Assembly (NCBI GenBank): GCA_039196715.1
Contig: JBCCUP010000027.1
Location: 1 to 58,976 of the forward strand
DNA length: 58,976 nucleotides
Reading direction: 5' to 3'
DNA from: Pseudomonadota bacterium
GTDB lineage: Bacteria; Pseudomonadota; Gammaproteobacteria; CALCKW01
Shown here: one piece after another, positions 8,787 through 46,831 of the stretch
Layout: every line of letters starts with the position of its first letter
How positions within the stretch are numbered: position 1 is the first letter of the stretch
Notes under the pieces: model-generated
What the model saw: the letters and a program-made list of their open reading frames with translations, nothing else
Told to the model about the DNA's origin: nothing
Database searches by the model: none
Program-made: the position numbers and the translations under genes

Positions 8787-8964
8787 GTCGTGCCACCACC
8801 GCAGGCGTTTCAGCATGCACACCGCTGCCCCCCACCGCCACCCCTGCATTCGCCGCCACACCGGCTGCGACCTCGTCGGCCGCTGACGCCGGGCCGCCGC
8901 GCGCCCGTGAGTGACGCGGACGTCTCCCCTGGTATTCACCCCGGCTCGAACGGAGGGCGCTGCG

Positions 8965-11070
8965 GTGACCAACGCTTCCGGGCTTCGATTGGCCTCAGAC
9001 ATTGGCGGCACCTTCACCGACACGGTGTTGATGCACGACGGGGCTGTCCTCGCCACCACCAAAACACTGACCACCCACGCTGCGCCCGCCGAGGGCGCGC
9101 TGGTCGGCGCGACCCGCGTGTTGGGCGAAGCGGGCCTGCACTTTGACGCGGTCGACGGCATGGTGCATGGCACCACGCTCGCGACCAACGCGTTGATCGA
9201 ACGGCGCGGCGCCCGCGTCGCGACCGTCTGCACCGCGGGCTTTCGCGACATCCTCGAGATCGGCTACGAGCGGCGCTACAGCCAGTACGACATCAACCTC
9301 CGCAAACCGGATTTGTTGGTCCCCCGCCACCGCAGCCTGTCTGTCGACGAGCGCGTGTCGGTCCGCGGCGAGGTGCTGCGGCCGCTGACCGACGCGGCGA
9401 TCGACGCGGTCATCGTGCAACTGGACGCGCTCGAGGCCGAGGCGGTGGCGGTGTGTCTGCTGCACAGCTACGCCAACCCGCAACACGAGGAGAAGCTGGC
9501 TGACGCCGTGCAGCGGCGCCGGCCGGGGCTGCACGTGTCGCTCTCGAGTGCCGTGAGCCCGGAGGCGCGCGAGTTCGATCGGCTCTGCACCACGGTGGCC
9601 AACGCCTACATCCAGCCCCTGATGTCGGGCTACCTGCACGACTTCGACCGGCGCTTCAACGAGGCCGGTCTCGGTTGTGCGGTGCTGATGATGACCGCCG
9701 GGGGCGGCATGTGCACCCTCGACACCGCCGCCCGCTTTCCGATTCGCCTGGTGGAATCGGGGCCGGCCGGCGGGGCGCTGCTGGCCGAGCGCATTGCCCG
9801 CCAACTGCAGCTCCCGCACGCGCTGTCTTTCGACATGGGCGGCACCACCGCCAAGCTCTGCCTGATCGACGGTACGCCGCAACGCGCCCGGCAGTTCGAG
9901 ATCGCTCGCCAGGCCCGCTTCATCAAAGGCAGCGGCATGCCGGTTCGCATCCCGGTGATCGACATGATCGAGATCGGCGCCGGCGGCGGGTCGATCGCGT
10001 CGATCGACCGGCTCGGACGCCTGCAACTCGGCCCGGAGAGTGCCGGCAGCGAACCGGGCCCGGTGGCGTTCGACCGTGGCGGAGTGTCGCCGACGGTCAC
10101 CGACGCGGACCTGACGCTCGGCTACCTCGACCCGACCCGGTTCGCCGAGGGGCGCCTCACCCTGAACACCGACAAGGCGCGACGCGTGATTGCCGATCAG
10201 ATCGCGCCGAGCCTCGACCTCGCTGGCGCGGATGCCGCAGCCCGGGCCGCCTACGGCATCAGCCGTGTGGTTGACGAAAACATGGCGAGTGCGGCCCGTA
10301 TGCACGCCGTTGAATCCGGCAAACACCTCGGTGTCCGCACGATGATCGTGTTTGGCGGCAACGGCCCGTTGCACGCGACGCGTGTGGCCCGCGCAGCGGG
10401 TGTCGACCGCATCGTCGTCCCACCCGACCCGAGTGTCGGGTCGGCGTTGGGCTTTCTCCACGCACCGGTGTCGTTCGAGATCGTGCGCAGCCAGTACGGA
10501 CTGCTCGACACGCTCGACCTCGACACCGTCAACCACCTGTTTGACGAACTCATCGGCGACGCACGCACGGTGGTTGACGCCGGCGCGCCCGGTGCCGCGG
10601 TGGACGTCAGCCGCATCGCGTACCTGCGCTACCACGGTCAGGGGCACGAGATCGAAATCGCGCTGCCCGATCGGCCGCTGCGCGACACCGACCTGGGCGC
10701 CGTGCGCAACGCCTTCGACACAGCATACGCGGCGCAATACAGCCGCCCTGTGCCAGGCATGCAGATCGAGATACTCAATTGGTCGGTGACGGTGCGCACG
10801 CGCGCGCTCGACGAGGCGAGCGAGCGCCAGGCGGCGACTGACGCAGCAACCCACAGCACACCGAACGGTACCACCACCACACTCCGGTGCGACCTCAACG
10901 ACACCCCGGTCGAGGCGCTCGTGGTCAACCGTGACGCGCTGACGCCCGGCCACCGGATCACCGGACCGGCGCTGGTCGTCGAACCCCAAACCACCACCCT
11001 GGTCAGTGCCGACTTCGGCGCGGAGGTCGACGCGTTCGGCAACCTGGTGCTCACACGGGAGGCCCGTTGA
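8965..11070 (+). CDS. hyuA: Hydantoinase/oxoprolinase family protein, HyuA (ATP-grasp-like subunit A)
   Basis: Subunit A of an ATP-dependent hydantoinase/5-oxoprolinase-type enzyme, 701 residues. The N-terminal ASDIGGTFTDTV and HGTTLATNALIERRG motifs, a central LSFDMGGTTAKLCLI second phosphate loop and the GGGSIA segment are all family hallmarks. The GTG at 8965 is chosen because a GGAGG ribosome site sits 8 nt upstream. The next gene starts 2 bp after its stop. The enzyme hydrolyses a cyclic amide (hydantoin, oxoproline or related lactam) with ATP. The true substrate is open, because the downstream operon genes do not match a standard hydantoin pathway. Confidence 0.92.
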   Translation: MTNASGLRLASDIGGTFTDTVLMHDGAVLATTKTLTTHAAPAEGALVGATRVLGEAGLHFDAVDGMVHGTTLATNALIERRGARVATVCTAGFRDILEIGYERRYSQYDINLRKPDLLVPRHRSLSVDERVSVRGEVLRPLTDAAIDAVIVQLDALEAEAVAVCLLHSYANPQHEEKLADAVQRRRPGLHVSLSSAVSPEAREFDRLCTTVANAYIQPLMSGYLHDFDRRFNEAGLGCAVLMMTAGGGMCTLDTAARFPIRLVESGPAGGALLAERIARQLQLPHALSFDMGGTTAKLCLIDGTPQRARQFEIARQARFIKGSGMPVRIPVIDMIEIGAGGGSIASIDRLGRLQLGPESAGSEPGPVAFDRGGVSPTVTDADLTLGYLDPTRFAEGRLTLNTDKARRVIADQIAPSLDLAGADAAARAAYGISRVVDENMASAARMHAVESGKHLGVRTMIVFGGNGPLHATRVARAAGVDRIVVPPDPSVGSALGFLHAPVSFEIVRSQYGLLDTLDLDTVNHLFDELIGDARTVVDAGAPGAAVDVSRIAYLRYHGQGHEIEIALPDRPLRDTDLGAVRNAFDTAYAAQYSRPVPGMQIEILNWSVTVRTRALDEASERQAATDAATHSTPNGTTTTLRCDLNDTPVEALVVNRDALTPGHRITGPALVVEPQTTTLVSADFGAEVDAFGNLVLTREAR

Positions 11071-11071
11071 C

Positions 11072-12733
11072 ATGGCCGCTTCGACATCGTCTGCACTGCT
11101 GCAAGTGCAATGGAACCGCTTGCTCGCCCTGGTCGAGGAGCAGGCACAAACCCTGATCCGGGCCGCGTTCAGCCCCATCGTGCGCGAGTGCGGTGACATC
11201 TCGGCCGGCCTCTTCGACCGCTCGGGTCGCATGCTGGCACAGGCGGTCACAGGCACCCCTGGCCACATCAACACCATGGCGGAAGCCGTGCACGCGCTGA
11301 TGGCCCACTTTCCGACGACCACCATGCGACCGGGCGACATCTACCTCACCAACGACCCCTGGCTCGCCTCGGGCCACCTGAACGACTTTCTGCTGCTGAT
11401 GCCCGCCTTTCACAACGGCGAGGTGATCGGCTTCAGCAGCTGCACCTCGCACCTCGTGGACCTCGGCGGCAAAGGCATGGGCCCGGAGGGCAGCGACGTG
11501 TTCGACGAGGGCTTGCTGGTGCCACCGTGCAAACTGGTCGACCGCGGGCACTTGAACGCGTTGCTGATGGACATCGTACGCGCCAACTCGCGCGAACCGG
11601 TGGCCAACGAGGGCGACATCTACGCGTTGATTGCCTGTTGCGAAGCCGGCGTGGCCCGACTCGAATTGCTGTTGCGCGAATTCTACCTCGACACGCTCGA
11701 CCCGCTGGCCGAGCACATCATCAGCACTTCGCTCACCGGCACCGAGGCCGCTATTCGCGCGGTGCCGAACGGCACCTACCACCACGCGCTGCGCGTCGAC
11801 GGCTACGAGCGGCCTATCACGCTCGCCGCGAGTCTGACCGTGACCGACGCGGACATGACGCTGGACTTCGACGGCACCGACGGGTGCTCGGAGAGAGGCA
11901 TCAACGTGCCACTCAACTACGCCACCGCCTACGCCGTGTTCGCGTTGCGGTGCATCGTCGGCCCGGACATCCCGAACAACGCCGGCAGCCTCGCGCCGTT
12001 CCGCGTGGTCGGTCCCGCCGGGTGCATTCTGAACGCCCAGCGGCCGGCACCGGTCGCCATGCGCCACACCCTCGGGCAGATGATGCCGGACCTGGTGTAC
12101 GGCGCCTTGCACCAGGCGTTGCCGGATGCGGTGCCAGCCGAGGGCGCGTCGTGCATGTACGACCTGCCACTGCGCAGCGCACCCGAGGTGGCGCGCGACG
12201 GCGGGCACGCCTTCGCCGTCGAGTTGGTTCACAACGGCGGCACCGGCGCCCGGCCGCAGCTCGATGGCCTGTCGGCGACAGCGTTTCCGAGCGGGGTGTT
12301 CGGCAGCCAGGTGGAAATCACCGAGGCGGTCGCGCCGGTGCGCATCGAGCAACGCGAGTTGCGCCCCGACAGCGGCGGTGCGGGCCGCTTCCGCGGCGGC
12401 CTCGGCCAACGCATCCGCCTCACCCCGTCCGGCGGCGGCGCCGTGATCGCCTACCTCTCGGTCGAACGGGTGCAACACCCGGCCGCTGGCCGCGCCGGTG
12501 GCCTCGACGGTGAACCGGGCCGCATCCGACTCGATGGCGCCGACGCCGATTTCCCCGGCAAGGGCGAACTGCGCATCGAACCGGGCCAAACCCTGGTGTT
12601 CGACACGCCCGGTGGCGGCGGCTATGGCCCGCCGTCACAACGCAGCGCGGCCGACCTCGAGCGCGACCTCAGAAACGGCCTGGTCAACCCCGATACCGCC
12701 GCGGCCGTGTACGGCCGCACGGAGGCCCCGTGA
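11072..12733 (+). CDS. hyuB: Hydantoinase/oxoprolinase family protein, HyuB (subunit B)
   Basis: Subunit B partner of HyuA, 553 residues. Signatures are LIRAAFSPIVRECGDIS, the TPGHINTMAE segment, the DPWLASGHLND metal/active-site motif and the C-terminal FDTPGGGGYGPP. The start ATG is preceded by GGGAGG inside the end of hyuA. The stop overlaps the next gene by 4 bp (GTGA), so translation is probably coupled. It should form a heteromeric ATP-dependent cyclic-amide hydrolase with HyuA in the cytosol. Confidence 0.93.
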   Translation: MAASTSSALLQVQWNRLLALVEEQAQTLIRAAFSPIVRECGDISAGLFDRSGRMLAQAVTGTPGHINTMAEAVHALMAHFPTTTMRPGDIYLTNDPWLASGHLNDFLLLMPAFHNGEVIGFSSCTSHLVDLGGKGMGPEGSDVFDEGLLVPPCKLVDRGHLNALLMDIVRANSREPVANEGDIYALIACCEAGVARLELLLREFYLDTLDPLAEHIISTSLTGTEAAIRAVPNGTYHHALRVDGYERPITLAASLTVTDADMTLDFDGTDGCSERGINVPLNYATAYAVFALRCIVGPDIPNNAGSLAPFRVVGPAGCILNAQRPAPVAMRHTLGQMMPDLVYGALHQALPDAVPAEGASCMYDLPLRSAPEVARDGGHAFAVELVHNGGTGARPQLDGLSATAFPSGVFGSQVEITEAVAPVRIEQRELRPDSGGAGRFRGGLGQRIRLTPSGGGAVIAYLSVERVQHPAAGRAGGLDGEPGRIRLDGADADFPGKGELRIEPGQTLVFDTPGGGGYGPPSQRSAADLERDLRNGLVNPDTAAAVYGRTEAP

Positions 12734-13788
12734 TCCGTCCCACACCACAGGTCGCGGCGATGGCCGCCTACGCCCTCACCGACCTCGACAGCGACGCATT
12801 CTCGCTCGCCCAGAACGAGAGTTTCTGGCCGCCGAGCCCGGCTGCGCTCGCCGCGCTTGCCGACGGCCACACCGCGCACGCCCTCTACCCCGACCCGGAC
12901 TGGACGGCCTTGCGCGCCGCCATCGCCGGGGTGCACGGCCTGCCGCCCGACCACCTGCTGTGCGGCTCGGGGTCGATGGAGTTGCTTGGCGCCGTGATCC
13001 GGGCGTTCAGCGGCCCGGGCGACACCGTGCTGGCGAGCGACTACAGCTACGCCTACGTTGCCACCGCGTGCCGGCACGCCGGCAGCGAGCGCCTGTCGGT
13101 GCCGGAGCCGGACTACCGGGTGGACGTCGACGCGCTGCTCGACGCAGTGCGGGACACCACCCGCATCGTCTTCGTCGCCAACCCCGGCAACCCGACTGGC
13201 ACCCACGTGCCCCCACGTGAGCTGATCCGGCTGCGCTCGGCCCTGCCCGACCACGTGCTGCTCGTGGTGGACGAGGCCTACGGCGAATTCGCACCGGCCG
13301 ACGGCGGGGTGCTCTGGCCCCTGATCGAGCGTGGCGACACGGTCGTCACCCGCAGCTTCTCCAAGGCCTACGCCCTGGCCGGGGCACGCGTCGGCTGGTG
13401 CGCCTTGCACGCCTCGCTGGCGGCCGAGGTGCGCAAACTGCTCAACCCGAACAACGTGTCCCGCGCGAGCCAACGGGCAGCGGCGGCCGCAATACAAGAC
13501 GCGAACCACCTCGAGACCGTTGTCGCCGCAACGCGTGCGGCGCGCACCCAACTGTGCGACGGCGTGCGAGCGCTCGGCCTGGCCGCGCCCGAGAGCCACA
13601 CCAACTTCGTGCTGGTGCCGTTCGCCGACGCACAGACCTGCACGCGTGCCGACACCACCCTGCGGTCGTGTGGCGTGCAGGCGCGGTCCCTCGGCGGCTA
13701 CGGGCTCAGCCACTGCCTGCGCATCACGGTCGCCGACCCCCCGACCATCTCGACCGTACTCTCCGCCATCGAGGACAGCTTGTCATGA
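12730..13788 (+). CDS. PLP aminotransferase, HisC-like class I/II
   Basis: Fold type I aminotransferase of 352 residues. Visible motifs are NPGNPTGTH (~151-159), the PLP-contacting DEAYGEF (181-187) and the Schiff-base lysine K212 in SFSKAYALAGARVGW. It most resembles histidinol-phosphate aminotransferase/HisC-like enzymes (Y-P-D-P substrate loop near residue 53). No histidine-biosynthesis genes are nearby, and its placement between hyuB and an isomerase argues for a catabolic or specialised role. The GTG start overlaps the hyuB stop and its own stop overlaps the next ATG (ATGA). Confidence 0.87.
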   Translation: MIRPTPQVAAMAAYALTDLDSDAFSLAQNESFWPPSPAALAALADGHTAHALYPDPDWTALRAAIAGVHGLPPDHLLCGSGSMELLGAVIRAFSGPGDTVLASDYSYAYVATACRHAGSERLSVPEPDYRVDVDALLDAVRDTTRIVFVANPGNPTGTHVPPRELIRLRSALPDHVLLVVDEAYGEFAPADGGVLWPLIERGDTVVTRSFSKAYALAGARVGWCALHASLAAEVRKLLNPNNVSRASQRAAAAAIQDANHLETVVAATRAARTQLCDGVRALGLAAPESHTNFVLVPFADAQTCTRADTTLRSCGVQARSLGGYGLSHCLRITVADPPTISTVLSAIEDSLS

Positions 13789-14540
13789 CCGCACCAACCG
13801 ACATCGACTCGCGCGGGGGGCTGCGCATCGGCCTGTTGGTGCCGTTCACCAACACCAACTTCGAACCGGACATGGTGCGGCTGAAACCCCCGGGTGCGAC
13901 CTTGCACAGCGCGCGCCTGGGCGGCTACGACAGCGAGGCCATTCCGGGTGCCGACCAAATGGCCGGTCTCGGCGCCTCGCCCGTGGACGAACCGGTTCGG
14001 TTGATCGCGGGCGTGCGGCCCCACGCGGTGCTGTACGGCTGCACGTCGGCCACGCTGACGCACGGAAGGGCATTTGATCAGTCGTTGTCGGCCACCCTGG
14101 CCGAGCGCTGCGGCGCCGTGTCGATCACCGCGGCCGGCGCGCTGGTGGCGGCGCTGCACACCCTCGGGGTCCGACGCGTCGGCTTCGCCTCCCCCTACCT
14201 CGGTGAGATCAACACCCAGGCGACGGCGTTTCTCGCCGACGCAGGCGTGCAGACGGTGAGGTGCCACGACATCGGCCGCGCCCTCGACAACTACGGCCAG
14301 GGGGAGCTCACGCCAGCCGAGGTGTACGCGCTCGGGTGTGCGGCGGACCACCCCGAGGCCGAGGCCATTGTGCTCTCGTGCACCGACATGCGGTCGGTCG
14401 AAGCTGTCGAGGCGCTGGAGGCCACCCTTGGCAAACCTGTTGTGACATCCAATCAGGCGATGGTCCACACCCTGTGCACCGCCGTGGGCTGTCCGCCACC
14501 GCCGGACGCGTGTGGCACGCTGTTGCGCGACCACCTCTGA
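13785..14540 (+). CDS. Maleate isomerase / Asp-Glu racemase superfamily protein
   Basis: Protein of 251 residues with two catalytic-type cysteines, C86 in LYGCTSATL and C199 in LSCTDMRS, spaced as in maleate cis-trans isomerase and arylmalonate decarboxylase relatives. The N-terminal LVPFTNTNFEPD segment matches the substrate-binding loop of that group more than that of classic hydantoin racemase. It is translationally coupled to the aminotransferase (ATGA). A cofactor-free isomerisation or racemisation of an acid released by HyuAB is inferred. The exact substrate is unknown. Confidence 0.82.
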   Translation: MTAPTDIDSRGGLRIGLLVPFTNTNFEPDMVRLKPPGATLHSARLGGYDSEAIPGADQMAGLGASPVDEPVRLIAGVRPHAVLYGCTSATLTHGRAFDQSLSATLAERCGAVSITAAGALVAALHTLGVRRVGFASPYLGEINTQATAFLADAGVQTVRCHDIGRALDNYGQGELTPAEVYALGCAADHPEAEAIVLSCTDMRSVEAVEALEATLGKPVVTSNQAMVHTLCTAVGCPPPPDACGTLLRDHL

Positions 14541-18664: not shown

Positions 18665-19417
18665 TCAACCGACGCCCTCTCGCAACAGCAAGCCGAGACC
18701 GGACAACACCATCAACGAGACCAGCAAACGGCGGTACTGCGCGTCGCTGAGGCGATTGAACAGACCGATGCCGAGCTGGGCCGCGACCAAGGTGGCAGGC
18801 AGGCTGATTGCCAGTTTGACGAGGAACGCCGTGTCCAGGTGACCCAGTACACCGTAGTAGGCCACCGCGAGAATCAGCACGACGACGTTGAACGGCTGCA
18901 ACACGCCACGGGTTTCGGATTTGCTCCAGCCACGCAAGCTGCACCACAGCATCGGCAGTGCGCCCGACAGGCCGGCCATGCCGCCGAGCAACCCACCGAG
19001 GAATCCCACACCGCTGTCTGCCCACCGCGGCACGCCACGCCAGCGCGGCAGCGCCCGGATCGAAAACCACACGCCATAGCCAAGCAGCAACACGGCAATC
19101 AGGCGCCGCAGCGGGCCCGCGTCCAGGTGCTGGAGCAAGGCGACGCCCAACGGCAAGCCGAGCACCGCCGGCACGACGAAACGCGCCAGCCGCCGGTAGG
19201 CGATGCCGTGACGCACCACCCAGACGCCCTGCAGGCCGCTGAGCACGGAGAGGCTCGCAGCAAGGGCCACGGCCTCAATCGGCGGCAGCACGAGCAACCA
19301 GAATCCCAGCGCGAAAAGCGCTGTGCCGAAACCGGCAAGGCCATTGACGAAGCCGCCCGCCGCCGCGCCGGCGAGCAGCAGGCTCAGCGTCAGGGTGTCA
19401 GGCAAACACCACCCCAT
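18665..19417 (-). CDS. TSUP-family (TauE/SafE) membrane permease
   Basis: Integral membrane protein of 250 residues with about eight hydrophobic helices and the family's two glycine-rich repeats (GGFVNGLAGFGTALFALGF and GGLLGGMAGLSGALPMLW). TSUP proteins move sulfite, sulfonates or small organic anions across the inner membrane. It is divergent from the ectoine hydrolase-like gene with 67 bp between starts, so the two may share regulation. The substrate is not predictable. Confidence 0.88.
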   Translation of the reverse strand: MGWCLPDTLTLSLLLAGAAAGGFVNGLAGFGTALFALGFWLLVLPPIEAVALAASLSVLSGLQGVWVVRHGIAYRRLARFVVPAVLGLPLGVALLQHLDAGPLRRLIAVLLLGYGVWFSIRALPRWRGVPRWADSGVGFLGGLLGGMAGLSGALPMLWCSLRGWSKSETRGVLQPFNVVVLILAVAYYGVLGHLDTAFLVKLAISLPATLVAAQLGIGLFNRLSDAQYRRLLVSLMVLSGLGLLLREGVG

Positions 19418-19484
19418 GCCCCCGTCCGCACGGGTCGCGGTCAGCGCGATACACTGCGCACGGGCGCCCCCCGAAGAGACTCAG

Positions 19485-20675
19485 ATGACACACCAGCCGC
19501 ACCCCATTCCCGCGTTCACGCGCCGTGAATACGACGACAGGCTGACACGAACGCGCGCGGCAATGCAACGTCGGAACATCGACGTGCTGATCGTCAGCGA
19601 CCCGTCCAACATGGCCTGGTTGACCGGTTACGACGGCTGGAGTTTCTACACCCACCAGGCCGTGGTGATCGGCCAGGCGGGCGAGCCGATCTGGTGGGGC
19701 CGCGGCATGGACGCGCTCGGCGCCCGACGCACGGTCTGGATGAACACCGACAACATTCTTGGTTACGACGACACCTGTGTGCAGAACCCGGACAAACACC
19801 CGATGCGCGACCTCGCGTCCGTCCTCGAGCAGCGCGGCCTCGCGCGTGGCACGCTTGGGGTCGAGCTTGACAATTACTACTATTCCGCAGCGGCCGACCA
19901 GGCATTGCGCAGCGGCCTCGCGAACGCGACACTGGCCGATGCGACCGGCCTCGTCAATTGGCAGCGCGCCGTCAAGAGCGACACCGAAATCGCTTGCATG
20001 CGGGCGGCTGCGCGCATCGTCGAGCACATGCACCAACGCATTCTCGACACCGCCGAACCCGGCATGCCGAAACACCTGCTGGTTGCCGAGATCTACCGCA
20101 GCGCCATCGCCGGCACAGACGGCATCTGGGGCGACTATCCCGCGATCGTGCCGTTGACGCCTTCGGGCCTCGACGCGACCGCGCCCCACCTCACCTGGGA
20201 TGACAAACCGATCCAGGCAAACGAGTGCACCTTCTTCGAGATTGCCGGCGTGCACCGCCGGTACCACTGTCCGCAGTCCCGCACGCTGTTCTTCAACCGT
20301 GTACCCGACCGCTACCGCAGGGCCGAGGCGGCGGTGCTCGAGGCAATCGAAGCCGGTCTTGCCGAAGCCAGACCCGGAAACCGGTGCGAGGACATCGCCA
20401 ACGCCTTCAACCGTGCACTCAACCGGGCTGGATTCCACAAGGACAGCCGTGCCGGGTACGCCATCGGACTGTCCTACCCCCCTGATTGGGGCGAACGGAC
20501 GATGTCGTTTCGCGCGGGGGACAGCAGCGTGCTCGAGGTCGGGATGACGTTCCACTTCATGCCGGCGCTGTGGCTCGACGACGGCGGCCTGGAGATCACC
20601 GAATCAATCCTGATCACCGAGAGCGGCGCGGAGTGTCTGTGCAACACCCCGCGAGAAGTGTTCGTCAAGGACTGA
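19485..20675 (+). CDS. M24-family hydrolase, ectoine hydrolase (DoeA)-like
   Basis: Pita-bread-fold enzyme of 396 residues. The segments VLIVSDPSNMAWLTGYDGWS, FYTHQAVVIGQ, LGVELDNYYYSA and TGLVNWQRAVKS closely follow my memory of DoeA/EutD ectoine hydrolases, which open the ectoine ring to N-alpha-acetyl-diaminobutyrate. The standard aminopeptidase P metal ligands are not all conserved, as usual for DoeA. The rest of the doe cluster (DoeB deacetylase, transporter) is not in this window, so a different amide substrate is possible. The start ATG is assigned from the homologous N-terminus. Confidence 0.72.
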   Translation: MTHQPHPIPAFTRREYDDRLTRTRAAMQRRNIDVLIVSDPSNMAWLTGYDGWSFYTHQAVVIGQAGEPIWWGRGMDALGARRTVWMNTDNILGYDDTCVQNPDKHPMRDLASVLEQRGLARGTLGVELDNYYYSAAADQALRSGLANATLADATGLVNWQRAVKSDTEIACMRAAARIVEHMHQRILDTAEPGMPKHLLVAEIYRSAIAGTDGIWGDYPAIVPLTPSGLDATAPHLTWDDKPIQANECTFFEIAGVHRRYHCPQSRTLFFNRVPDRYRRAEAAVLEAIEAGLAEARPGNRCEDIANAFNRALNRAGFHKDSRAGYAIGLSYPPDWGERTMSFRAGDSSVLEVGMTFHFMPALWLDDGGLEITESILITESGAECLCNTPREVFVKD

Positions 20676-37320: not shown

Positions 37321-38553
37321 CTACGGCGCACAAGCCGACTCGGCCAGGGAGACGATGTTGTGCTCGGGTCCGTACGGAAACGCCGTGAGGTTGCGCGCAC
37401 CGGACTCCGTGACCGCCAGAATGTCGTGCTCCCGGTACCCGCCCGCGCCGGGCAGGCCCTCGGGCAACATCACCATCGGTTCCATCGAGACCACCATGCC
37501 GGGCTCGAGTACCGTCTCCACGTCTTCGCGCAACTCCAGGCCGGCCTCCCGGCCGTAGTAGTGGCTCAAGACACCAAAACTGTGTCCGTAGCCAAAGGTC
37601 CGGTATTGCAATAATCCGTGTGCCTCGTATACCCCGTTCAACTCGGCTGCAATCTCGCTGCAGCGTGCGCCAGGCCGAATCAAGGCGAGCCCCGCCTCGT
37701 GCACAGCGACGTTGGCTTGCCAGATACGCAGTGAATCGTCGTCGCAGTGATCGAGGAACAGCGTGCGCTCCAGCGCGGTGTAATAGCCCGCAATCATCGG
37801 AAAACAATTGAGACTCAGGATGTCGCCGCGGGCAACGGGCCGTGACGTGACCGGGTTGTGGGCGCCGTCGGTGTTGATGCCCGATTGGAACCAGGTCCAG
37901 GTGTCCATCAGTTCCGCGTCCGGGAAGCGCCGCGCGATCTCACGCACCATCGCCTGCGTCGAAGCCAGCGCGACCTCGTGTTCAGGCACGCCTTCGGCCA
38001 ACGCAGCCACCGCGGCGGCACCGCCGATGTCGGCCACGGCCGCACCTGCGGCGATGTGGGCAATCTCCTCCGCGGATTTCAGCATGCGCGCCGACATGCA
38101 CAGCGGTGCGACATCGACCAACACCGTGTCGGCCAGGGCGGTCTGCAGCGCGCGGTGGCGGTCGACAGTGAGGTGGTCGTGCTCGACGCCGAGCCGCCGC
38201 ACCCGACCCAGCGCGTGTTGCACCGCGCAGAGGAAGTTGTCGCGTTGCCAATCGGTGTAGACGAGGTTGTCACCGTCCGCCGTGCGGCGCCACGGCTGGC
38301 CACCGTCGATGTTGGCCGAGAGGGACACGACCCGGTCGGCGGTCACCACCAACGCGTAGGGCCGACCGAAGGCGCAGTAGAGAAAGTCTCCGTAGTAGTT
38401 GACGTTGTGAATCGACGTCAGCAGCACGGCGTCGAGATCACCAGCCGCCATGGCGGACCGCAAACCGGCGCGACGGCGCGCGAACTCGGCCTCGCTGAAG
38501 GTGCTCCGGGCTTTCTCGCCGTTTTCAAGGGTGGTCAGCGCGGCGCGTGTCAT
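37321..38553 (-). CDS. Creatinase (creatine amidinohydrolase)
   Basis: Pita-bread-fold enzyme of 410 residues that hydrolyses creatine to sarcosine and urea. The match to remembered Pseudomonas creatinase is very close over long stretches, including HNVNYYGDFLYCAFGRPYAL, SANIDGGQPWRRT, the catalytic-His segment SGINTDGAHNPVT, LSLNCFPMIAGYYTALERT and the C-terminal GLPGAGGYREHDIL. The start ATG at 38553 has AGGAG 8 nt upstream; a much longer open frame upstream is antisense to the LysR gene and is rejected. It is probably controlled by the divergent LysR regulator. No sarcosine oxidase is in the window. Confidence 0.95.
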   Translation of the reverse strand: MTRAALTTLENGEKARSTFSEAEFARRRAGLRSAMAAGDLDAVLLTSIHNVNYYGDFLYCAFGRPYALVVTADRVVSLSANIDGGQPWRRTADGDNLVYTDWQRDNFLCAVQHALGRVRRLGVEHDHLTVDRHRALQTALADTVLVDVAPLCMSARMLKSAEEIAHIAAGAAVADIGGAAAVAALAEGVPEHEVALASTQAMVREIARRFPDAELMDTWTWFQSGINTDGAHNPVTSRPVARGDILSLNCFPMIAGYYTALERTLFLDHCDDDSLRIWQANVAVHEAGLALIRPGARCSEIAAELNGVYEAHGLLQYRTFGYGHSFGVLSHYYGREAGLELREDVETVLEPGMVVSMEPMVMLPEGLPGAGGYREHDILAVTESGARNLTAFPYGPEHNIVSLAESACAP

Positions 38554-38593
38554 GTCTGTCTCCTGCGGTGTGGGGCGGAGTATTGACCTCCCT

Positions 38594-38621
38594 GATATAT
38601 CTGTAAAATGAAATTTATCAA
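38594..38621 (-). promoter_or_regulatory. Creatinase promoter
   Basis: On the minus strand TTGATA, 16-nt spacer, TATATC, in the AT-rich 93-bp gap between creatinase and the LysR gene. The rest of the window is so GC-rich that this patch stands out. Confidence 0.5.
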
Positions 38622-38628
38622 TAATTGA
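38618..38628. promoter_or_regulatory. Candidate LysR-binding palindrome TCAATAATTGA
   Basis: Perfect 11-bp inverted repeat that overlaps the creatinase -35 box and lies 19 bp before the LysR start. A second short palindrome, GATATATC, is at 38594-38601. The position suits a LysR regulator acting on both genes. Confidence 0.4.
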
Positions 38629-38646
38629 ATTCACGAATATCGATAC

Positions 38647-39459
38647 ATGGACATCGACCTGGCACGCACCTACCTCGCCGTGATGACGCACGGCAGCTTC
38701 AAACACGCAGCGTCCGAGCTGCACTGCACGCAATCGACCGTGACGGCGCGCATCAAGCAGCTCGAACAGCTGCTCGGGCGGGCGCTGTTCGTGCGCAGCC
38801 GCGCCGGCGCCGCGCCAACCCCCGAGGGACGCCGCTTCAGGCCCTACGCAGACCGCCTGCTGTTGGCCTGGCGCGAGGCTCAGCAGGCGCTCGGGTTGCC
38901 GAGTCGCCTGAAAGGCACCGTGCGGGTCGAACTCGATCGACGGCTCGCGCCGCAGGTGGGCCTGGCCGTGAGCGCGGGCCTGCTCAACGCCCTGCCCGAC
39001 TGGTCCGTGGAGGTGCTCGAGGCCCCGCAAACCGACGCCGACCTCGCGATCGGCTACGGTATGACGCCGCTCCCGGGTCGCGCGCCGCTCGCCCGCGTCG
39101 CGGATGAGCTGGTGCTGGTGGCCACATCCGCGCGAACCGCCGTCGACTGGGACCCGGACTACCGGGCAATCGATTGGGGACACCCGTTCCGCGAGGCCTA
39201 CGCGCGCCACTACCCGGTCGACCGCGTCCCGCAACTCCAGCTGCCCGCCGAACGCTGGTCGCTCGACTGTCTGATCGCCGTCGGCGGATCGGCCTACGTG
39301 CCGCTGAGCTGGTGCACCGAGGCGCTGGCGAGCCACACGCTGCACCGGGTCACCAACGCCGCGACCTTTCCGATCGACCTGAACGCTGTCGAACGCACGC
39401 CGGATGCCGCCTGGGCGCAGCCGGCAGGCGAGGCCATCCGGGCCGCACTGGGTGCCTGA
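38647..39459 (+). CDS. LysR-family regulator, probable creatinase regulator
   Basis: Regulator of 270 residues with a clear N-terminal LysR HTH (RTYLAVMTHGSFKHAASELHCTQSTVTARIKQLEQ) and a somewhat short effector-binding domain. It is transcribed away from creatinase from a 93-bp shared gap with AT-rich palindromes, the usual LysR arrangement, so control of creatine breakdown is inferred. The effector domain of usual members is longer (about 290-310 residues in total). Confidence 0.9.
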   Translation: MDIDLARTYLAVMTHGSFKHAASELHCTQSTVTARIKQLEQLLGRALFVRSRAGAAPTPEGRRFRPYADRLLLAWREAQQALGLPSRLKGTVRVELDRRLAPQVGLAVSAGLLNALPDWSVEVLEAPQTDADLAIGYGMTPLPGRAPLARVADELVLVATSARTAVDWDPDYRAIDWGHPFREAYARHYPVDRVPQLQLPAERWSLDCLIAVGGSAYVPLSWCTEALASHTLHRVTNAATFPIDLNAVERTPDAAWAQPAGEAIRAALGA

Positions 39460-39573
39460 TTCGGACCGACGGCTCACACGCACCACCGACCGGAGTGTCC
39501 GATTCACGACACCCCGCTGCCCCCTGCCCCGCTGAACTGCTACACCTGACGCACCGTCGGCGAGGAGAAGGTC

Positions 39574-43925: not shown

Positions 43926-44139
43926 TCACATCGCCGTGCCCATGTGCCGAAGTTCCGGGAAGTCTTCCACCTCGAGCATCAGCTCGAGGCACGAGACACC
44001 GCACGTACCGCGACGGAAGTCACAGCATGTCGTCGTGCGCGTCGAGCACCGGGTCAAGGCACAGGTCGTCGCCGTAGGGCATCCGTGCCCGGAAATCGGT
44101 TTCGGCGCCGTCACGCGACGGCGCGCGGGGGCCGCTCAT
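43926..44139 (-). pseudogene. kynA (tryptophan 2,3-dioxygenase) remnant
   Basis: An ATG at 44139 overlaps the kynU stop (ATGA) and opens a reading frame that looks like the start of tryptophan 2,3-dioxygenase: ...TDFRARMPYGDDLCLDPVLDAHDDML, matching the family's M-x-YG-x-Y-L-x-LD-x-x-L-x-A-Q ... HDEML. It ends at a TGA at 44020. In another frame, the last ~31 codons to the TGA at 43926 (FRRGTCGVSCLELMLEVEDFPELRHMGTAM) match the enzyme's C-terminus (K-x-GTGG-x-x-GV-x-YL ... FFPELW). About 200 residues of the middle are missing, with a frame change and several substitutions. Protein function is lost. Confidence 0.8.
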
Positions 44140-45329
44140 GTGACCGTCGCACGCCGTTGGTAGACCGCTTGATCCCAGGCCCGGCTCGCCATCACCTCGG
44201 CCAGCACATCGCAGGCGCGGTCGACATCCGCCAAACCGAGGTAGAGCGGTGTGAAGCCAAACCGCAGCAGATCGGGCGCGCGGAAATCCCCGATCACGCC
44301 CCGATCGATCAGGGCCTGCATCACGGCGTACCCGTCGGCAAAGGCAAAGGACACCTGTGAGCCCCGCTCGCTGGCGGCCCGGGGAGACGCGAGCGTCAGC
44401 ATCGGGCACTCGGCTTCGACCCGCGCGATTAAATGCTCGGAGAGCGCAATCGACTGCGCGCGCACATCCTCGAGATCCACGCCTTCCCACACATCAAGCG
44501 CCGCATTCAAGGCCGCCATCGCGAGCACCGGTGGCGTGCCGACCCGCATGCGTTCGACGCCGGCAGCCGGGCGGTAACCGGGCTCGAAGGCAAAGGGCGC
44601 GTCGTGCCCGAGCCACCCGGGCAGGGCCGGGTCCAACGCGTCGGACAGGCTTCTCTCGACGTAGATGAACGCCGGCGCGCCCGGCCCGGCGTTGAGGTAC
44701 TTGTAGGTGCAGCCCACCGCGAAGTCGACACCCAGGTCACCGACGGATAACGGCAACGCGCCAGCCGAGTGCGCGAGGTCCCAGACCACCAGCGCACCGG
44801 CGTCGTGCGCGCGCTGTGTGATCGAGGCCATGTCGTGCACGCGTCCGGTGCGGTAGTCGACGTGCGTCAGCATCACCACCGCCACCGACTCGTCGATGGC
44901 ATCCGACACCGCGTCGGGCGCAACCGTCTTCAGCGTGTGACCTCGGTCGATGGTGTTGATCAACCCGTCGACCATGTAGAGGTCGGTGGGGAAGTTTCCG
45001 GTGTCGGACAGCACGGTCTTGCGCGACGGGCGCAGCTGCAACGCCGCCGCCACCGCCTGGTGGACCTTGATTGACAGGGTGTCGCCGACGGTCGTCTGCC
45101 CGGGGGGCGCCCCGATCAGGCGTGCGATGCGGTCGCCGACCGCGGCCGGCTGCGCCATCCAACCCGCTCGGTTCCAGGCCGTGATCAGCATGTCACCCCA
45201 CTCGTTGCGCACGGTCTGCTCGAGGGCGCTCAGCACGCCGTTCGGCAACGGCCCGAGTGAATTTCCATCGAGGTACACCGTCCCACCTGGCAGGTCGAAA
45301 CAGGCGCGGGTTCGCGCGAAATCGGTCAT
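44136..45329 (-). CDS. kynU: Kynureninase
   Basis: PLP-dependent enzyme of 397 residues that cleaves kynurenine to anthranilate and alanine. The N-terminal YLDGNSLGPLP, the DTGNFPTDLYMVDG region, VVWDLAHSAGALPL and the PLP-lysine segment FAVGCTYKYLNAGPGAPAF are all typical. The ATG at 45329 begins the homologous N-terminus. It appears intact. Its stop overlaps the start of the kynA remnant, indicating an original kynU-kynA operon that lost kynA. Confidence 0.95.
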   Translation of the reverse strand: MTDFARTRACFDLPGGTVYLDGNSLGPLPNGVLSALEQTVRNEWGDMLITAWNRAGWMAQPAAVGDRIARLIGAPPGQTTVGDTLSIKVHQAVAAALQLRPSRKTVLSDTGNFPTDLYMVDGLINTIDRGHTLKTVAPDAVSDAIDESVAVVMLTHVDYRTGRVHDMASITQRAHDAGALVVWDLAHSAGALPLSVGDLGVDFAVGCTYKYLNAGPGAPAFIYVERSLSDALDPALPGWLGHDAPFAFEPGYRPAAGVERMRVGTPPVLAMAALNAALDVWEGVDLEDVRAQSIALSEHLIARVEAECPMLTLASPRAASERGSQVSFAFADGYAVMQALIDRGVIGDFRAPDLLRFGFTPLYLGLADVDRACDVLAEVMASRAWDQAVYQRRATVT

Positions 45330-45393
45330 GGGACTCTCCGGTCGGACACCGCCGTATGGTAGTGGATTCGCTCCGGCGGGCGGCAGGTCAGCA

Positions 45394-46332
45394 TCAGAAT
45401 CGGAGGTTGGCCACCGCCGCGGCCAACGCGGGCTGTCGCGCCAGCGCACCGCGCTCGGCGAGCCCGCGCCAACCCTGCACACCCCCGGTGTGCACCAGGT
45501 GCAGCTGCGCGCGGCCAGCGCGAGCGCACCAATGCGCCGCCTTGCCGGTGTACAGCGGGTCGAACAGCACGCCGGTCTCAGCGTAGGTGCGGGCCAGGAA
45601 ATCGAGCAGCGGTGCGTCGACCTTGCCATAACCACCACGCGCCGCGTCGACCGTCTCGACCACGCCATCGCCGAGCTTCGCAGCACGGGTCTCCCCCATC
45701 GCGCCGACAACATTCGCCGCAATCAGGGCCACCGCTGCCGACAGACCGCCGCGAAGGCCGGTCACGGTGGCCCCGGTGCCCATCGGCACGACCAGGGTCC
45801 GGCAATCGGCAAGCTGCAGCCCCGCAGCCAGGCGGCGACACGCGGCGACACCGACCGGGTCGTTCCCCCCTTCGGGAATCAGCACGTGGTCGGGGTACGT
45901 GCGCGCAAGCCAGTTGGCAAAGGCCGCCGACTCACGGCGTGCGTAGGTGGCGCGGTCGACGCGCTGAATCCGCATGCTCCAGCGCGCCGCATCGCGCAGC
46001 GTTGGGTTGTCGAGGTCGGCGTGCAGACCACGCACGATACCCACCGTGCGCAGACCGAGGCGCTGGCCGGCCGCCGCGAGGGCGTGCAGGTGATTCGAGT
46101 AGGCGCCGCCGAGGGACACAACCGCGTCCGCGCCGGTTGCCATCACCGCAGCCAGACGGGCTTGCAGTTTGGGCCCCTTGTTGCCCGATTGACCGGAATA
46201 GCAGCGGTCAAGGCGGTGGACCGTGAGGCAGGCGCCGCCGGGCAGCACGATACGCTCACGGGGCACCGTGGGCGGTCGATCGGGCCGCACCGGACTGCTA
46301 AGCTCCGGTGACTTTGTCCTGTCTGGTGCCAT
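45394..46332 (-). CDS. PLP-dependent ACC deaminase / D-cysteine desulfhydrase-like protein
   Basis: Fold type II PLP enzyme of 312 residues. The Schiff-base region reads SGNKGPKLQARL, followed by the LGGAYSNHLHALAAAGQRLGLRTVGIVRG stretch, LIPEGGNDPVG and the Gly-rich PMGTGATVTGL PLP-phosphate loop. It belongs to the 1-aminocyclopropane-1-carboxylate deaminase/D-cysteine desulfhydrase group, but the actual substrate is unknown. The chosen ATG at 46332 overlaps the divergent lptE ATG by 2 bases, which is unusual; a GTG a little downstream is an alternative start. Confidence 0.82.
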   Translation of the reverse strand: MAPDRTKSPELSSPVRPDRPPTVPRERIVLPGGACLTVHRLDRCYSGQSGNKGPKLQARLAAVMATGADAVVSLGGAYSNHLHALAAAGQRLGLRTVGIVRGLHADLDNPTLRDAARWSMRIQRVDRATYARRESAAFANWLARTYPDHVLIPEGGNDPVGVAACRRLAAGLQLADCRTLVVPMGTGATVTGLRGGLSAAVALIAANVVGAMGETRAAKLGDGVVETVDAARGGYGKVDAPLLDFLARTYAETGVLFDPLYTGKAAHWCARAGRAQLHLVHTGGVQGWRGLAERGALARQPALAAAVANLRF

Positions 46333-46831
46333 GAAAGCGACTGTCATTCTGCTGTTCTGCCTGCTGTTGGGCGGCTGCGGGTACCACCTGCTGGTGCCCA
46401 CCGCGACGCCCGAGCCGATTCACGTGACGGTGCGTGACAGCGGTGCGCCGCGGCTCGCGGCGACCTTGCGGCAGCGTCTGCAGCTCCACGGCCTGATGCG
46501 CGCCGACGCCACGGCGCGGCGCACGGTCACGGTGCGCGCCGAATCCACCGACCAGCGCCTGTTGGCCATCGACAGTGCCGGCCGCGCCGCAGAATACCGC
46601 GAGGAACACGCGGTGCAAGCCCGCGCGCACTGGACGGGCGAGCAGCCGGGCGACTGGCGGGACTACAGCGCGATCCGGGACTACGCCTACGACGCGTCTG
46701 TGGTGCTCGGCAAGGACCAGGAGAGGCAACTGATACTCGAGGAGATGCGGGTCGAACTCGCCGACCGCATCATCGAAAACCTCGTGTACGACGCCGTGCA
46801 CGCCGTGCAGCGCTCGGCCGAGGACGGCTGA
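46331..46831 (+). CDS. lptE: LptE-like LPS-assembly lipoprotein
   Basis: Lipoprotein of 166 residues with signal and lipobox LLLGGC (Cys at 18), followed by GYHL as in LptE/RlpB. The C-terminal helix pattern SAIRDYAYDASVVLGKDQERQLILEEMRVELADRI follows the LptE family closely. It would plug the LptD barrel in the outer membrane during LPS insertion. Normally lptE sits between leuS and holA, neither of which is here, so it is an orphan copy or relocated. Other Gly-Cys lipoproteins could mimic this, but the helix pattern is strong. Confidence 0.78.
   Translation: MKATVILLFCLLLGGCGYHLLVPTATPEPIHVTVRDSGAPRLAATLRQRLQLHGLMRADATARRTVTVRAESTDQRLLAIDSAGRAAEYREEHAVQARAHWTGEQPGDWRDYSAIRDYAYDASVVLGKDQERQLILEEMRVELADRIIENLVYDAVHAVQRSAEDG

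Follow-up and report, generated by a model that had tools for sequence, protein, structure and literature searches.

HyuAB-type proteins are common, and to our knowledge few of them have a known substrate. In ATP-dependent hydantoin operons hyuA and hyuB are joined by genes for a carbamoylase and a racemase. Caprolactam degradation in Pseudomonas jessenii employs the CapAB caprolactamase together with an omega-aminotransferase and a 6-oxohexanoate dehydrogenase (PMC6061476, PMC8453981), the aminotransferase taking the amine that is freed after HyuAB-type ring opening (PMC6061476). Marine bacteria demethylate glycine betaine by enzymes of the MttB superfamily, MtgBCD (PMC12478193). Here we analysed a window of 58,976 nucleotides (contig JBCCUP010000027.1 of the gammaproteobacterial assembly GCA_039196715.1), which carries at positions 8965-14540 an operon of hyuA, hyuB, a HisC-like aminotransferase gene and a gene for a two-cysteine enzyme of the maleate isomerase type. 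We propose, with a probability of roughly 0.6, that this operon is a module for ring opening and deamination within a catabolic pathway that occurs chiefly in marine Rhodobacterales, and also in certain gammaproteobacteria.

The locus resembles the cap cluster in that a predicted HyuAB-type ATP-dependent lactam opening would be followed by an aminotransferase and a dehydrogenase. It differs in that its scores lie far below the CapA and CapB cut-offs, the vicinal cysteines are absent, the aminotransferase is HisC-like and of class I/II instead of class III, and a maleate-isomerase-type protein is added, with a PrpD protein in the pathway. A preliminary description of this DNA had set HyuAB with both an aminotransferase and the isomerase-type protein apart from the standard hydantoin set. 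For HyuAB next to an aminotransferase caprolactam degradation offers a precedent (PMC6061476); the pairing with the isomerase is indeed non-standard for hydantoin utilisation. With hydantoin operons the locus shares HyuAB and a protein of the Asp/Glu racemase superfamily, but no carbamoylase is linked, the maleate-isomerase-type protein stands in the racemase's place and an aminotransferase is added. This protein agrees with maleate cis-trans isomerases (Nocardia farcinica, 2xec/2xed; Pseudomonas putida S16 Iso, 4fq5) in its fold (Z 33), both catalytic cysteines and the aligned Asn and Tyr; it differs in its sequence, with an identity of 22-29%, and in its gene neighbourhood. As for MtgBCD, MttB-type methyltransferases and demethylases of the FAD/folate type recur beside some relatives of the operon, but the linked MttB is one of many paralogues and is placed with HyuAB/PrpD. 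By the feature tested in each case, the operon is not a member of the caprolactamases, arylmalonate decarboxylases (AMDases), EutA, HisC, the carboxylases or the standard hydantoin set.

Arrangement and conservation of the operon

All four genes lie on the (+) strand. hyuA (8965-11070, GTG start, 701 aa) and hyuB (11072-12733, ATG start, 553 aa) encode the two subunits of a predicted ATP-dependent ring hydrolase of the HyuAB type (lactamase/hydantoinase family), HyuA being the one that binds ATP and HyuB the hydrolytic one that binds metal. They are followed by the genes for a HisC-like fold-type I pyridoxal phosphate (PLP) aminotransferase (12730-13788, GTG start, 352 aa) and for the two-cysteine maleate-isomerase-type enzyme of the Asp/Glu racemase superfamily (13785-14540, ATG start, 251 aa). 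The open reading frames (ORFs) and the junction sequences bear out the layout given in the preliminary description: a single base separates hyuA from hyuB (TGA-C-ATG), hyuB overlaps the aminotransferase gene by GTGA, and the latter overlaps the isomerase gene by ATGA. A GGAGG-type stretch is located 5' of hyuA, hyuB and the aminotransferase gene, and GAGG 5' of the isomerase gene; hyuA likely starts at 8965, though its ORF is open upstream to a GTG at 8911. The Pfam domains Hydant_A_N/Hydantoinase_A/Hydant_A_C, Hydantoinase_B, Aminotran_1_2 and Amdase were found on the respective proteins, none of which reached a curated equivalog cut-off of NCBIfam, so that each belongs to a known family but is an uncharacterised member of it.

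Four-base overlaps are frequent in operons generally, and what goes beyond chance here is the conservation of the arrangement, not the overlaps themselves. With the isomerase as query, one scan of contigs from 84,980 species yielded 38 loci; others came from plasmid records and from genome samples of a class and a family. We pooled 75 loci (L015-L056, L078-L080, L094-L122 and the window), and collapsing those whose isomerase genes share 97% DNA identity left 68. The pool did not take in copies from the window's own genome, paralogues, distant hyuAB loci, loci of PrpD and short duplicates of pooled loci (L001-L014, L057-L077, L081-L093, L123-L150, L152-L158), nor a further Leisingera plasmid (L151). 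The order hyuA-hyuB-aminotransferase-isomerase on one strand was present in 54 of the 68 non-redundant loci, a count that holds given the presence of the isomerase by which the loci were chosen. The arrangement, for which the preliminary description had proposed a check of neighbourhood conservation, is thus not private to this genome, nor do the four proteins fall into unrelated known pathways. Among the remaining 14 loci 5 lack the aminotransferase, 2 are ended by a contig edge and 7 were scored as lacking the set, the latter being four distant isomerase genes (~49% identity), L079, L080 (43% identity) and L102; in L079 an aminotransferase gene lies 3' of the isomerase gene and hyuAB is absent, and in L102 the aminotransferase match is weak and partial only. 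An overlapping start is available at the three junctions in 48/59, 52/54 and 51/56 cases, and all 14 ratios of non-synonymous to synonymous substitution (dN/dS) between the window and three or four relatives per gene fall between 0.10 and 0.36.

Hosts of the four-gene order are mostly Rhodobacteraceae/Roseobacteraceae, and several copies are plasmid-borne; 11 plasmid records carry a HyuB of >70% identity, eight of them pooled. A relative of the isomerase was detected in 6/369 genomes of the class sample (E 1e-30), in 2/398 genomes of a phylum sample (E 1e-45) and in 25/295 genomes of the family sample drawn round genome G439 (E 1e-45). Within the window's own family, of which 4 genomes were examined, a close copy is confined to its own genome and one other (71% identity), and the closest named relative is a metagenome-assembled genome labelled Granulosicoccaceae. 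Ruegeria rows occupy two places in the hyuB tree and some copies are plasmid-borne, in keeping with an exchange between lineages. The position of the window row in that tree is not well supported (84/81, long branch); the operon may possibly have entered the window genome by horizontal transfer from Rhodobacterales.

Active sites of the four proteins

HyuA and HyuB score above the Pfam gathering scores of Hydantoinase_A (E 2.7e-73, 247.2 bits) and Hydantoinase_B (E 8.5e-143, 477 bits), respectively. For caprolactamase and its relatives the ATP motifs DxGGT..., DxGGT and GxxPGP of HyuA and an Asp-His-Asp-His metal tetrad of HyuB have been defined (PMC8453981). The window HyuA contains D12-I-GGTFTD, D290-MGGT and GSEPGP (361-366), with the five checked positions being invariant in 58/58 aligned sequences, and D42, H102, D105 and H127 of HyuB, which align with the CapB tetrad D41/H99/D102/H124, are invariant in 59/59. 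HyuAB retains the ATP-binding and metal-binding motifs expected of a ring hydrolase driven by ATP, in agreement with the earlier assignment of HyuAB as a cyclic-amide hydrolase. On the caprolactamase models of NCBIfam, which have a cut-off of 1000, HyuA scores 422.7 bits and HyuB 184.2, no CC is found in the HyuB stretch aligned with the vicinal Cys410-Cys411 of CapB, and no curated 5-oxoprolinase model matched HyuAB.

A second hyuAB pair in the same genome (contig C55, L075; HyuA 48%, with an in-frame TAG in hyuA) is followed by genes for a SoxB-like FAD oxidase, a sugar-epimerase-like protein and a peptide-type binding protein, the last being 63% identical to its counterpart beside a Ruegeria operon (L053). 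In a Rhizobium hyuAB locus another aminotransferase, 30% identical to that of the window, is encoded directly 3' of hyuB. An amine-removing enzyme right after hyuB is thus found in three related hyuAB lineages, as HisC-like aminotransferase, Rhizobium aminotransferase or SoxB-like FAD oxidase. On a plasmid of Leisingera methylohalidivorans (L096, 11989-14181) the N-terminal part of HyuB and the aminotransferase are joined in frame into one protein of 730 aa with no annotated HyuA, which looks like a decaying copy of the operon.

The aminotransferase (Aminotran_1_2, E 8.3e-57) retains the features of fold-type I enzymes in all 53 sequences, i.e. the PLP lysine K212 and the substrate arginines R319 and R331; D181, Y184, N154 and R220 are likewise invariant in 53/53 and N151 in 52/53. 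We take the roles of the PLP lysine and the substrate arginines from HisC, including that of the two C-terminal arginines, which presumably bind both ends of a dicarboxylic substrate. The protein itself falls short of the HisC model TIGR01141 (221.5 bits, cut-off 276.55).

An AlphaFold2 model of the isomerase (predicted local distance difference test, pLDDT, 92) had maleate isomerases as top matches in the PDB (4fq5, Z 33.1, root mean square deviation 1.7, 235 residues aligned; 2xed, Z 32.8), with weaker matches to AMDase (Z 30.7), allantoin racemase (18.0), hydantoin racemase (16.4) and amino acid racemases (~12-15). C199, N23 and Y138 are conserved in 68/68 loci, C86 in 67/68 and N169 in 63/68, and the window protein possesses the two catalytic cysteines and the aligned Asn/Tyr/Asn of maleate isomerase, five residues which we take to form the active site of that enzyme. 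The second cysteine is named in the titles of PDB entries 2xed and 4fq5. By its modelled structure the protein is a two-cysteine maleate-isomerase-type enzyme, from whose fold a substrate cannot be named. Its pairing with HyuAB and an aminotransferase, which the preliminary description had pointed out, is real and conserved; of the designation "maleate isomerase/AMDase-type" the first half holds by fold and both cysteines and the second does not. AMDase has Gly74, Gly189 and the motifs LMGTSLSF and ILLSCGGL, with Gly in place of Cys86 and after the second cysteine (PMC4996985). In the window protein these key glycines are replaced, the corresponding features being Cys86, Thr200, LYGCTSAT and IVLSCTDM, and its score on the AMDase model is 76.8 bits against a cut-off of 225.

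The best curated score of the isomerase is on the EutA model TIGR02990 (88 bits, cut-off 318). A link to ectoine, considered because of this score and of an ectoine-hydrolase-like gene 5 kb downstream, was rejected as the score is far below the cut-off and ectoine genes are not among the recurrent neighbours. The downstream gene (19323-20675, (+) strand) encodes an M24 protein similar to ectoine hydrolase (DoeA/EutD; 611.9, cut-off 613) and adjoins a divergent gene for a TauE-type transporter.

Partner genes and proposed pathway

We examined the 59 loci with hyuA, hyuB and the isomerase gene for partners within the flanking DNA. A MmgE/PrpD protein is encoded in the flanks of 30/59 loci and a D-2-hydroxyacid dehydrogenase in 26/59; in 12 loci the PrpD gene follows immediately downstream in the same orientation, and in 17 it lies on the opposite strand. 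Co-occurrence was tested free of linkage in 295 genomes of one family (294 genera), using the hypergeometric distribution. The isomerase occurs in 25 and a PrpD of this type in 32 of these genomes, and both in 21, as compared to 2.7 expected. In 8 of the 21 the two genes lie on separate contigs or at least ~200 kb apart; after removal of the 13 linked genomes, 8 were observed versus 0.8 expected (p 3.6e-8). In the window's own genome orthologues of PrpD and the dehydrogenase (74% and 61% identical to those of Ruegeria) are encoded by adjacent genes on contig C71, with two genes of the enolase superfamily and one for a class III aminotransferase nearby. The operon is one of two modules of a larger system; the preliminary description had missed the PrpD and D-2-hydroxyacid dehydrogenase partners and, in a subset, enzymes of N-demethylation.

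By analogy with characterised relatives HyuA would activate the substrate with ATP and HyuB would break a ring C-N bond by hydrolysis, the ring being that of a lactam, a cyclic imide or a hydantoin-like compound, and so release an amino group. The HisC-like aminotransferase would then transfer the freed amino group onto a 2-oxo acid, after which the isomerase may turn a cis-ene dicarboxylate into the trans form or invert a stereocentre, and finally the MmgE/PrpD enzyme and the D-2-hydroxyacid dehydrogenase would act on the resulting acid. The conserved operon is probably catabolic. As to the end product, for which a D-amino acid or a dicarboxylic intermediate had been suggested, the latter agrees with the active site of the isomerase, which is that of a maleate isomerase, and with the pair of arginines conserved in the aminotransferase; nothing that we found favours a D-amino acid. 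A published account of this pathway was not found in our searches of open-licence papers. A distinct HyuAB clade with a fixed set of partners narrows the chemistry, and strains of Ruegeria, Leisingera and Defluviimonas are available to testing, the first two genera being culturable.

A hint at the starting compound comes from genes for MttB-type methyltransferases, which are located beside 16/59 loci; MttB, DMGDH-type or sarcosine-oxidase-type genes taken together are found beside 17/59 (at least 40% identity), and looser clustering places a FAD/folate protein in 15/68 loci. The gene order of L119 is hyuA-hyuB-isomerase-dehydrogenase-FAD/folate protein-MttB, all in the same orientation, and the FAD/folate gene of L027 lies directly 5' of hyuA; neither locus has an aminotransferase. 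The linked type of MttB occurs in 13/295 genomes, 8 of which also have the isomerase (1.1 expected) and 10 the PrpD (1.4 expected). As MttB and FAD/folate demethylases belong to the gene set of a subset, the starting compound is plausibly N-methylated, i.e. a heterocycle of the betaine type. Homarine, ergothioneine and proline betaine were considered as substrates, but our searches of open-licence papers gave no tie between them and HyuAB. In a wider and more tentative reading, to which we give somewhat less than even odds, the two modules would form a marine pathway whose substrate is a nitrogen heterocycle with N-methyl groups, such as a lactam, imide or hydantoin of the betaine type. It would begin with corrinoid and FAD/folate demethylation, after which a new HyuAB clade opens the ring at the expense of ATP; transamination and an isomerisation of the maleate type would follow, and PrpD and D-2-hydroxyacid steps would complete it. 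Plasmids would in part carry the pathway between lineages. Methylated amines are described as an important part of marine dissolved organic nitrogen (PMC13390433), and if the N-methyl link is true, the operon would represent a further route for the marine bacterial turnover of methylated nitrogen compounds. In L140 and L147 a PrpD-MttB-demethylase group with a LysR regulator is present in genomes that have no isomerase; this group is a module in its own right.

Alternative readings and neighbouring genes

Several observations weigh against the proposed pathway. MttB/demethylase genes accompany only 17/59 loci, the surroundings of the window operon showed none, and this one gammaproteobacterial genome has ten MttB-family (PF06253) genes; as such genes are numerous, part of the MttB linkage may be chance. 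The aminotransferase beside hyuB is absent in 5/59 loci; in two of these (L027, L119) a gene of the FAD/folate demethylase type is instead aligned with the operon, which counts in favour of the pathway. PrpD is found without the isomerase in 11/32 genomes and the isomerase without PrpD in 4/25, and the hypergeometric values take no account of phylogeny. Finally, what the data show are the gene set, its conservation, the intact active sites and the genome-wide co-occurrence, from which we deduce the order of reactions, the chemistry at the ring, the part played by each accessory enzyme and the N-methyl character of the substrate. The low share of loci with MttB/demethylase genes would also suit an incidental association, the Hyu-PrpD pathway being real and its substrate having no N-methyl group. 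This is conceivable, if not quite an even chance; the linked MttB type, however, co-occurs with the isomerase (8/13) and with PrpD (10/13) well above the expected 1.1 and 1.4, and in L119 the FAD/folate protein and MttB genes lie on the same strand 3' of hyuAB-isomerase-dehydrogenase. Alternatively, HyuAB might open a lactam of the pyrrolidine type, one that resembles 5-oxoproline or stems from the betaine of proline or hydroxyproline, to a glutamate-like acid, on which the aminotransferase, the isomerase and the D-2-hydroxyacid dehydrogenase would act. Such a substrate suits a dicarboxylate-binding aminotransferase and isomerase, proline betaine is described as being demethylated by an MttB-superfamily enzyme in a gut acetogen, and the two enolase-superfamily proteins near the C71 pair score best on cis-3-hydroxyproline dehydratase (380 and 340 bits, cut-off 500). 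We nevertheless consider it unlikely, as the enolase genes are not recurrent neighbours of the 68 loci and lie on the strand opposite to the PrpD/dehydrogenase pair, and no family score points to a 5-oxoprolinase.

The standard hydantoin set was the reading considered first: HyuAB would open a 5-substituted hydantoin, the isomerase would be a hydantoin racemase, an unlinked carbamoylase would finish the degradation and the aminotransferase would use the amino acid. HyuAB does belong to the right family, two TIGR01879 (carbamoylase/amidase) genes above the cut-off are present elsewhere in the genome, and xanthine/urate genes adjoin the operon in two Ruegeria plasmids. These plasmids are closely related and the purine genes are confined to them, so that the urate/xanthine link was dropped; a carbamoylase is neither in the four-gene operon nor among the listed recurrent neighbours of the 68 loci, and the isomerase is far nearer to maleate isomerase (Z 33) than to hydantoin racemase (16.4) or allantoin racemase (18.0). 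We therefore regard this reading as quite unlikely, in line with the view of the preliminary description that the operon is not the standard hydantoin set. An isomerase acting as amino acid racemase, with the operon making a D-amino acid, is similarly improbable: two active-site cysteines are known from racemases of the superfamily (PMC4996985), but fold and residues are closest to maleate isomerase, amino acid racemases reach Z values of only ~12-15, and the partner dehydrogenase belongs to a family acting on D-2-hydroxyacids. That HyuAB is an ATP-dependent carboxylase such as acetone or acetophenone carboxylase, with which it shares a superfamily, is highly improbable, since its 236.9 bits on the acetophenone carboxylase model are far below the cut-off of 1500, chain scores are 212.7 or less versus 334.7 and 283.5 bits to hydantoinase and caprolactamase chains, and a third subunit is not among the recurrent neighbours. 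We retain the ring-opening and deamination module as the preferred reading.

Further neighbours were considered and rejected as parts of the system. Malonate, TRAP and MatB genes upstream of the operon are restricted to the single locus L053, and neither the family of the same-strand ABC exporter downstream of the window operon (~14582) nor that of the Hsp70-like gene upstream is among the recurrent neighbours. On a Ruegeria plasmid (L095, 18585-20816) a precursor of a ribosomally synthesised and post-translationally modified peptide of the NHLP clan and a radical S-adenosylmethionine C-methyltransferase are encoded 3' of the operon. Elsewhere in the window, the later part of the ORF translation at 37321-39507 (-) appears to hold a second creatinase/M24-type protein. 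Judged from their translations, the ORFs at 44136-45722 and 45394-46401 (-), which lie in overlapping frames, encode a kynureninase-like and a PLP deaminase-like protein; the called start of the long kynureninase-like ORF is probably too far upstream.

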